A program made the position numbers and the translations under genes. A DNA stretch of 64,000 bases from Chryseomicrobium sp. FSL W7-1435 (lineage in GTDB: Bacteria; Bacillota; Bacilli; Bacillales_A; Planococcaceae). The stretch is from positions 1,488,001 to 1,552,000 of the forward strand of contig NZ_CP151997.1 of NCBI RefSeq assembly GCF_038595005.1. The letters are read 5' to 3'. The notes under the pieces are model-generated. The model searched no databases, was not told the origin of the DNA, and worked only from the letters and a program-made list of their open reading frames with translations. Within the stretch, counting starts at the first letter, position 1. The number at the start of each line of letters is the position of its first letter. This document shows, piece by piece, positions 13,221 through 63,740 of the stretch.

Positions 13221-13745
13221 ATGCCAAGCTACCAATGGAAACTCGCTATCTACATCACACTCATCTTACTCCTCACGCAGTTTGCTTTCTCTAAAAACTG
13301 GATTTCCTTTTCACCCGGCACCACGCTGTTTGCAGACGCCGAATGGTTTCCGCAGCCGAGTCTTCCCATAGCCACAAAAGATCTTGTGCCCGTCACAGCA
13401 GACATGGACCAGGATCAAACATTCGTCTATACGTCCTATCAACCGTACGAACAAGGTCTTTTAGTTCGAGTAGATGCCCATCAACCCGTGCTTGCTAAAT
13501 CAAGCGGCATGGTATTGTTTACGGGAGAGAAGCGCAAGACAGGGAAGACAATGACGATTGCTTATGACAGTGGAGACACTGTAACCTATGGCTTTTTGCA
13601 TGAGTTTGAAATGCTTCCTTACACGCGATTTGATGCCCAGGCTATCCTTGGCCAATCATCTGAAGATCTTTTCTACATTCATCACGACAATCACCTGCAA
13701 ACGCTTGATCCCGAGTCACTGATGATGTGGCTCACAATGGAATGA
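13221..13745 (+). CDS. spoIVFA: SpoIVFA-like M23-fold regulator
   Basis: In B. subtilis SpoIVFA anchors and inhibits SpoIVFB in the outer forespore membrane until the sigma-G signal arrives. This copy is 174 aa, shorter than the roughly 264 aa B. subtilis protein. It has an N-terminal transmembrane helix (about residues 7-24) and a LytM/M23-like domain (about 85-165; SGMVLFTGEKRKTGKTMTI). The expected HxH metal residues are replaced (GFLHEF; IHHDNH), so it is probably non-catalytic. AAAAGGGGAA precedes ATG 13221. It overlaps spoIVFB by four bases. The call rests on position between minD and spoIVFB plus the domain type. Confidence 0.82.
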   Translation: MPSYQWKLAIYITLILLLTQFAFSKNWISFSPGTTLFADAEWFPQPSLPIATKDLVPVTADMDQDQTFVYTSYQPYEQGLLVRVDAHQPVLAKSSGMVLFTGEKRKTGKTMTIAYDSGDTVTYGFLHEFEMLPYTRFDAQAILGQSSEDLFYIHHDNHLQTLDPESLMMWLTME

Positions 13746-14296
13746 AGCTTCGCATCCATCCAGTGCTAGTCATTTGGTTCGGTCTTCTTGTCATCACGGG
13801 GCAGGCCGGACTTTTTTCTCTTGTCTTCGCTTCCTTACTCATTCATGAACTGGGTCACTTGATGGCGCTCAAGCTCTGCGGCGTCAAATCCATTCACTGC
13901 ACATTGTTGCCGTTTGGCGGTAGGTTGGAATGGCAGGATAGGAGAGAGTGGAAGAAGAGAGACATGCTGTTCGTTTACAGTGGAGGGCCTCTTGCGACCA
14001 GTGCCCTTTTCAGTCTCTTGTTACTAATGCCGTTTCCGATCCCGCATTTAGTGCTTCAAATCCAGCTCATTATTCTTGCGCTTAATCTTCTGCCAATCCC
14101 TCCTCTTGATGGTGGGAATATGTTACGAATCTTACTGAAAGATTCTTCAGTAGCGATTCTTTTAAAACCAATTTATCTTATAACGTTTTGCTGTTTTGGC
14201 TTGTATGCTTACAATCAAATTGCATTTGCCAATCTCTTCCCAGCAATGATTTGGGGAGTGCTCGCATTAGAAAATTATAGGACGATAAAGTCTTGA
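13742..14296 (+). CDS. spoIVFB: SpoIVFB-like intramembrane metalloprotease (no CBS domain)
   Basis: Site-2-type intramembrane protease; the B. subtilis enzyme removes the N-terminal pro-sequence of pro-sigma-K. HELGH (residues 35-39) supplies zinc ligands and the general base, and D123 in the [11 protein letters not shown] segment supplies the third ligand. There are about five to six helices. It is 184 aa against about 288 in B. subtilis; the protein ends after the last helix, with no room for a CBS domain. ATG 13742 overlaps the SpoIVFA stop (ATGA). Its likely substrate gene, sigK, is at the other end of this window. Confidence 0.88.
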
Positions 14297-62426: not shown

Positions 62427-63128
62427 TTACTCTACTGTTGTTTTCGTTTTCATTAATTGATAGAGCTTTACTAAGGCTCGCTTTTCAATGCGTGACACAT
62501 AGCTTCTTGAAATCCCTAACTTTTCAGCTAAAGCTACTTGTGTTAGTGGTGTGTATTGAAAGAGGCCGTAGCGGTGTTGAATGATTTCAGCTTCACGATC
62601 ATCTAAGATGTGCAACCAAGCGTATAAGTGGTGAGTGAGTTCTTTATACGCCATCTGTTCATCAACTGGTGGGTCTGAGCTAGGAATCAAATCTGCGAGT
62701 GTCAATGTACCGCCTTCAATGTCTTGACCAACTTGTTCATGCAGCGATGTCTCTTGTTTTTGCTTTTTTATCTTTCGCAAATGCATCAGTATTTCATTTT
62801 CGATGCACCGGGCTGCATAAGTGGAGAGTTTCGTCTTCTTATCAGGCGTATAGCTGCTAACGGCTTTCAATAACCCGATGGACCCGATGGATATATAGTC
62901 TTCGAGATCATCTGGGCGAGAGGTGTATTTTTTCGCAATGTGCGCAACAAGACGCATATTATGTTCAATTAACAAATGACGTGCTTGGACATCACCTGTA
63001 TGCATCTGTTGGAAAAGTTGTTGTTCTTTTTCTGGAGGAAGTGGTTGTTCAAATGCCTGGCTTCTAATGTAACCAAGGGCTAGGGGAATGTGCGCGAGGG
63101 TGCTGACCAACAGGGAGAACCAATGAAT
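62427..63128 (-). CDS. sigK: RNA polymerase sigma-K factor (pro-protein), probable ATT start
   Basis: Late mother-cell sigma factor, 233 aa with this start. Region 2: LIEHNMRLVAHIAKKY, DLEDYISIGSIGLLKAV, KLSTYAARCIENEILMHLR; region 4 HTH with LAEKLGISRSYVSRIEKRAL. A hydrophobic pro-sequence (about 20 residues) precedes SQAFEQPLP. A perfect AAGGAGG (63142-63136) lies in frame, seven bases before ATT 63128, with no ATG/GTG/TTG in place. ATT gives a pro-sequence matching B. subtilis in length. ATG 63152 has no SD and would translate through it. The gene is contiguous, without a skin-type insertion. Confidence 0.93.
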   Translation of the reverse strand: MHWFSLLVSTLAHIPLALGYIRSQAFEQPLPPEKEQQLFQQMHTGDVQARHLLIEHNMRLVAHIAKKYTSRPDDLEDYISIGSIGLLKAVSSYTPDKKTKLSTYAARCIENEILMHLRKIKKQKQETSLHEQVGQDIEGGTLTLADLIPSSDPPVDEQMAYKELTHHLYAWLHILDDREAEIIQHRYGLFQYTPLTQVALAEKLGISRSYVSRIEKRALVKLYQLMKTKTTVE

Positions 63129-63135
63129 GTGTTTA

Positions 63136-63142
63136 CCTCCTT
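63136..63142 (-). promoter_or_regulatory. sigK ribosome binding site that decides the start
   Basis: AAGGAGG on the minus strand, seven bases upstream of ATT (63128-63126). Confidence 0.75.
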
Positions 63143-63176
63143 GTAAGAGCATATGCGGACGTCTATCTAGTCATAA

Positions 63177-63205
63177 CAAAACCCGCTACAAATGAGCGGG
63201 TTATA
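63177..63205 (-). terminator. Terminator of pssA
   Basis: On the minus strand AACCCGCT / AGCGGGTT stem and T-rich tail, overlapping the pssA stop codon. Confidence 0.88.
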
Positions 63206-63740
63206 TCTTGCGTAATGAGAATGTAGAGATCATCATGAAGGACAACATCAACATGAAGAAAAGGTGGACTACTGGTGATACATAAGGCACTGCAAAATAG
63301 CTAAGTGTTAGTACAACACCGGCAGCCGTGATTGGCAAGCCTGTAAAAAAGCCATTTGCTTCAGAAATATTAAAGCGTGCAAGACGAAATGCACCAGATG
63401 CGATATAGATTACGGTACTCACCATTGCTACTGTACCGAGTTCGTTCGTTGCATAAGCATAGATTAGTAGAGCAGGTGCAATACCAAATGAGATGACATC
63501 ACTCATCGAATCTAGCTGTTTTCCAAGTTCGGATTCAATACCTAATTTGCGGGCCGTCATCCCGTCAAAACGATCTAAAAGTCCAGCAATAAAAATAAAT
63601 AGGACGGCTAGTGCAAAATGGTCGTTCATGGTCACCATGATTGCTGCGCCACCAAAAGCCAGGTTTAGTATGGTCAATAGGTTAGCAGCCTGGCTTTTAA
63701 GCCGCGACAAACGTTCAATTGTAGATTCTAAAAAGAACAA
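63201..63740 (-). CDS. pssA: CDP-diacylglycerol-serine O-phosphatidyltransferase
   Basis: Makes phosphatidylserine from CDP-diacylglycerol and serine in the membrane. It is 179 aa with about six helices; the CDP-alcohol phosphatidyltransferase motif DG-x2-AR-x8-G-x3-D-x3-D is complete (FDGMTARKLG...GKQLDSMSD). The start is TTG 63740 after GAGGGGAAA. It is divergent from psd, the next enzyme in phosphatidylethanolamine synthesis. Confidence 0.93.
   Translation of the reverse strand: MFFLESTIERLSRLKSQAANLLTILNLAFGGAAIMVTMNDHFALAVLFIFIAGLLDRFDGMTARKLGIESELGKQLDSMSDVISFGIAPALLIYAYATNELGTVAMVSTVIYIASGAFRLARFNISEANGFFTGLPITAAGVVLTLSYFAVPYVSPVVHLFFMLMLSFMMISTFSLRKI

Follow-up and report, generated by a model that had tools for sequence, protein, structure and literature searches.

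The sigK gene, encoding pro-sigma-K, lies next to pssA in Chryseomicrobium sp. FSL W7-1435, within the 64,000-nucleotide stretch of contig NZ_CP151997.1 that was analysed as a whole (the window). Its product was identified as SigK by NCBIfam NF004471 (275.6 bits; cut-off, 252), the second-best match being TIGR02846, which remained under its own cut-off (255.8 versus 298.65). Along the minus strand, the end of pssA is followed by its terminator, the element CATATGCT, CTTAC, the Shine–Dalgarno (SD) sequence AAGGAGG, the 7 nt spacer TAAACAC and the codon ATT (...CGCATATGCTCTTACAAGGAGGTAAACACATTCATTGG...), from which the frame stays open to the stop at 62427. The pssA terminator insulates sigK from read-through.

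Table 1. Features of the sigK locus and of the associated sporulation genes in the window
Feature	Position	Strand	Remark
sigK (pro-sigma-K) CDS, re-called	62427..63128	-	ATT start, 233 codons and stop; start column placed by alignment with 127 members of the family
ATT start codon of sigK	63126..63128	-	At the conserved start column
SD of sigK, AAGGAGG	63136..63142	-	7 nt 5' of ATT
Sigma-E-type -10 element of sigK, CATATGCT	63148..63155	-	Conserved motif
In-frame ATG upstream of sigK	63150..63152	-	Assigned to the -10 element rather than taken as a start
sigK pro-sequence	63072..63128	-	19 codons, ending just before the conserved Tyr
pssA terminator, upstream of sigK	63180..63202	-	Stem kept in G001 and G003
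pssA, upstream neighbour of sigK	63201..63740	-	TIGR00473 match
spoIVFA- and spoIVFB-like genes	13221..14296	+	ORFs; Peptidase_M50 match over cut-off

An earlier note had placed the start of sigK at this ATT, seven bases behind AAGGAGG. The SD and its spacing were confirmed, and ATT is very likely the true start codon as judged from the sequence, in which no other usable start is apparent; the conserved start column and the sister comparison described below lend it strong support. The further statement that no standard start codon is near held only in part, because the same frame contains an ATG 24 nt upstream of the ATT and a TTG as codon 7, although no SD is suitably placed for either. The pro-sequence had been likened to that of Bacillus subtilis pro-sigma-K. 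SigK proteins carry a hydrophobic pro-sequence of approximately 20 residues before a conserved (S/G)Y, and 19 residues were found between ATT and GY, one fewer than in the GTG-started orthologue of Bacillus velezensis (L120).

Each of the 128 family sigK genes examined is preceded by CATANNNT, which we take to be a sigma-E-type -10 element from its resemblance to the consensus; the -35 element was not resolved in the sequence. In this genus, the -10 element (CATATGCT, CATAGACT or CATACACT) is always at -27 and 5 nt before the SD, approximately 10 nt nearer the start than in other genera. Since the -10 box is so close to the start, the sigK leader probably spans no more than about 15 nt, and the ATG at 63152 falls within the promoter. 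Translation from this ATG would yield a pro-protein eight residues longer, and this codon, which precedes all other standard starts of the frame, is the likely choice of automatic annotation. However, it lies inside a box that is itself conserved over 128 genes, has no SD and is upstream of the likely transcript start; genus g2 also carries CATATGCT with the ATG inside, yet its sigK starts at a downstream ATG. Together with its absence from sister species, these observations make initiation at 63152 very improbable.

We compared this locus with three other genomes of the genus (G001, G002 and G003), in which sigK is present only in eroded form, as the 5' end in G001 and G003 and as the 3' half in G002 (remnants L035/L043 in G001, L041 in G003 and L040 in G002). 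Splitting of the sister genes by a skin-like element was considered and rejected, the copies being eroded remnants with deletions and stops rather than precise splits. Both retained 5' ends share the footprint CATANNCT-N5-AAGGAGG-N7, followed by ATG in G001 (L043; CATAGACT-CTTTC-AAGGAGG-CAATTCT-ATG) and by ATT in G003 (L041; CATACACT-TTTTT-AAGGAGG-TACGTCT-ATT). Thus, the -10 box, the 5 nt gap, the SD and the 7 nt spacing have been kept, whereas the intervening bases have diverged. The ATT start would have been contradicted by conservation of the ATG at 63152 together with the coding sequence upstream of it, but the equivalent ATG is missing from both of these sisters, and an in-frame TAA overlaps the SD of G003 sigK, leaving ATT as the only sigK start in that genome.

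Between our sigK and the sister copies, pS was saturated (0.76–0.89) and pN was low (0.11–0.14), indicating that purifying selection acted on the sigK frame during most of the divergence. The losses of sporulation genes in the sisters are therefore probably recent. On comparison of rseP and infC, G002 and G003 were closer to one another than to G000 or G001; either the ancestor of the genus already had the sigK ATT, or it arose on two occasions.

The same comparison bears on the two weakest alternatives. The codon-7 TTG is of a type that serves as a normal sigK start in Planococcaceae, but it lies 25 nt from the SD, is replaced by CTT in G003 and by GTC in G001, and would leave a pro-sequence of only 13 residues, so that translation from it is hardly credible. 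A sequencing error converting ATG to ATT, for which the ATG of G001 at the same position could be cited, has a negligible probability, because the independent assembly of G003 also has ATT and many other family members carry ATT, ATC, ATA or CTG at the start column, including ATT, ATC and ATA in genera g4 and g17.

The earlier note had proposed an alignment of sigK 5' regions in related species, and this was carried out for 128 sigK 5' ends from 13 genera of Planococcaceae, with the conserved (G)Y of the pro-sequence as the anchor. The family was assigned from the relatives that similarity pointed to by name, Bhargavaea and Lysinibacillus. At the start column, defined as 20 codons before the Tyr (19 in genera g1 and g19), all 128 codons were ATG or one base away from it, which was not the case for neighbouring columns. 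The codons were ATG (65), TTG (27), ATT (15), GTG (9), ATC (7), CTG (4) and ATA (1), giving near-cognate starts (ATT, ATC, ATA or CTG) in 27 of 128 genes. Genus g4 has ATT or ATC in 17 of its 18 members and ATG in the remaining one (L205), which differs from L011 by a direct swap between ATG and ATT in an otherwise near-identical context; g17 includes ATT, ATC and ATA; and four genomes of g10 have CTG. The sigK genes of g4, g17 and g10 are intact. For g4 and g17, initiation could instead occur at an in-frame ATG that lies upstream and overlaps the SD. An in-frame TAA directly precedes the CTG in three of the four g10 genomes (L254, L261 and L262), where it closes an ATG-NNN-TAA mini-frame overlapping the SD, and termination–reinitiation at these CTG starts is conceivable.

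The minimum number of changes between canonical and near-cognate starts on the sigK tree, by a quick method, was four; near-cognate sigK starts were thus gained at least three times. In 20 matched genomes, the start of sigE was canonical (ATG or TTG) in every case and that of sigK near-cognate in five (one-sided Fisher P=0.024, with relatedness ignored). Outside the family, no near-cognate start was found in a set of 41 sigK genes from named genome records (two being Lysinibacillus and Bhargavaea relatives), which start with ATG (18), GTG (13) or TTG (10). This makes 56% of the 41 non-ATG, compared with roughly 22% of B. subtilis genes overall.

The motif itself is no rarer than chance allows, and its rarity was rejected as evidence. 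The pattern AAGGAGGN{6,8}ATT is expected 0.33 times per window and occurred at least once in 28 of 100 shuffles; in the genome, AAGGAGGN6-8ATT was found 18 times, fewer than a reversed control pattern (47), and only five of the 18 sites open long frames able to use the ATT. It is the position of the sigK ATT at a conserved start column, together with the comparative data, that raises it above chance. A TspO-like gene (L087 1515) also has ATT 7 nt after AAGGAGG, the next ATG being codon 7.

Based on these features, the sigma-E-type promoter, whose -10 element ends approximately 5–6 bases before the SD, would transcribe sigK with a very short leader; AAGGAGG would position the ribosome, and initiator fMet-tRNA would start at AUU to give pro-sigma-K with its 19-residue pro-sequence. 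Because IF3 rejects AUU, which pairs imperfectly with the initiator tRNA (at the third position), translation should proceed at a fraction of the AUG level, perhaps a tenth by analogy with Staphylococcus aureus, in which AUU and AUA starts give about 10% of AUG expression (PMC13009471). In Listeria, start strength follows the order ATG > ATA > ATT (PMC13068326), and IF3 represses the GTC-started sigR of Streptomyces (PMC5472188). The infC gene of our Chryseomicrobium sp. (L230) itself has an ATT start behind GGAGG, so that AUU initiation should be possible in this organism.

Throttling of sigK by AUU is plausible by analogy, and a throttle maintained by selection is somewhat less likely than not. 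Compensation by a stronger SD was rejected, since SD duplex energies did not differ between near-cognate and canonical sigK starts. The ATG starts with a strong SD in genus g2 indicate that such a throttle is not universal. A broader proposal, in which the sigK start codon is an evolutionary dial across Planococcaceae, moved independently at least three times to ATT, ATC, ATA or CTG and holding pro-sigma-K synthesis low and coupled to IF3 late in sporulation, is a doubtful extension.

Another explanation, which accepts ATT as a real start and competes only with the throttle, is relaxed selection: as sporulation is being lost in the genus, slightly harmful weak starts would have drifted to fixation, with no regulatory device involved. 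We regard this as nearly evenly balanced between right and wrong. Sporulation is lost or being lost within the genus, as judged from the sisters, which have no matches for spoIIGA, sigE, sigF or sigG and only a broken sigK; together with the state of spoIIP, these losses make relaxed selection a serious alternative here. The only spoIIP match in our genome (L082 1514 onward and L344; genome C1 about 1563836–1564600, outside the window) has an ATT start behind AAGGAGG, no canonical alternative before codon 57, and an in-frame TAG in an otherwise open frame; an N-terminal spoIIP remnant was looked for in the sisters and not found. In spoIVB, encoding the SpoIVB peptidase S55 (L084 1516; genome C1 about 1649094), ATT is directly followed by TTG at SD distance. 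Relatives have canonical starts in both genes. The sigK of Chryseomicrobium sp. sits on a very long branch of the sigK tree, which, like the spoIIP TAG, points to weakened selection on sporulation, and start codons change more in fast-evolving genes (PMC5622118). On the other hand, the sigK ATT is common to G003 across saturated synonymous divergence with the frame constrained, its -10 box, SD and spacing are fully preserved, and near-cognate starts recur in the three genera with intact sigK, for which relaxed selection offers no explanation. Our genome also retains sigE, sigF, sigG and spoIIGA. The repeated swaps to weak starts in relatives suggest that low sigma-K output is tolerated or even favoured; we consider it tolerated throughout and, in some of the family's sporulating lineages, probably favoured.

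For the sigK ATT, the nearest precedents come from infC and from Streptomyces sigR, with its GTC start under IF3 control. Like sigK, sigR is a sigma-factor gene with a non-canonical start that automatic annotation places wrongly at an upstream canonical codon, and its translation is IF3-sensitive, which for sigK is only expected (PMC5472188). In contrast, the sigma factor encoded by sigR responds to oxidative stress, has an anti-sigma partner and is made by coupled translation; its start is GTC rather than AUU and has been proven experimentally, whereas that of sigK is predicted from sequence. The infC gene, encoding IF3, starts with AUU or AUA and shares with sigK an AUU behind a strong SD in the same genome, but infC regulates itself, and the wide conservation of its rare start contrasts with the scattered and variable near-cognate starts of sigK. 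The cvfC1 (AUU) and ccpN (AUA) genes of S. aureus, also a member of Bacillota, resemble sigK in start codon and extended SD (PMC13009471); their codon identity is conserved, unlike that of sigK, which wanders among ATG, GTG, TTG, CTG, ATT, ATC and ATA. The Bacillus orthologue of sigK (spoIVCB) also has a weak start, with a 20-residue pro-sequence, but its GTG is a standard alternative start codon. As in other near-cognate-start genes, sigK has no usable AUG, GUG or UUG at its start and its initiation context is conserved. It therefore represents a good and recurrent new case of a near-cognate start, not a new kind of system.

Changes to near-cognate starts have been reported about once per 30,000–60,000 genes, with one AUG-to-AUU switch (about 1.6e-5) and two AUG-to-CUG switches in 61,358 genes (PMC5622118). 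Our literature search found no published account of near-cognate sigK starts, and the starts of sigK in these genera are probably misannotated. Near-cognate starts are generally regarded as restricted to infC and a handful of other genes. If a single developmental sigma factor has repeatedly changed to such starts, its translation would stand out as a point at which sporulation is controlled; for sigK, this level of control has received little attention relative to DNA excision and proteolysis.

Finally, our genome holds spoIVFA/spoIVFB-like, spo0B-like and spoVB-like genes, the name spoIVFA being our presumption. The spoIVFB-like product is likely the pro-sigma-K protease. Its ORF (13727–14296) encodes only 189 aa, compared with about 288 aa for SpoIVFB of B. 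subtilis, and the protease motifs, HELGH and a further motif of 11 residues, are intact.
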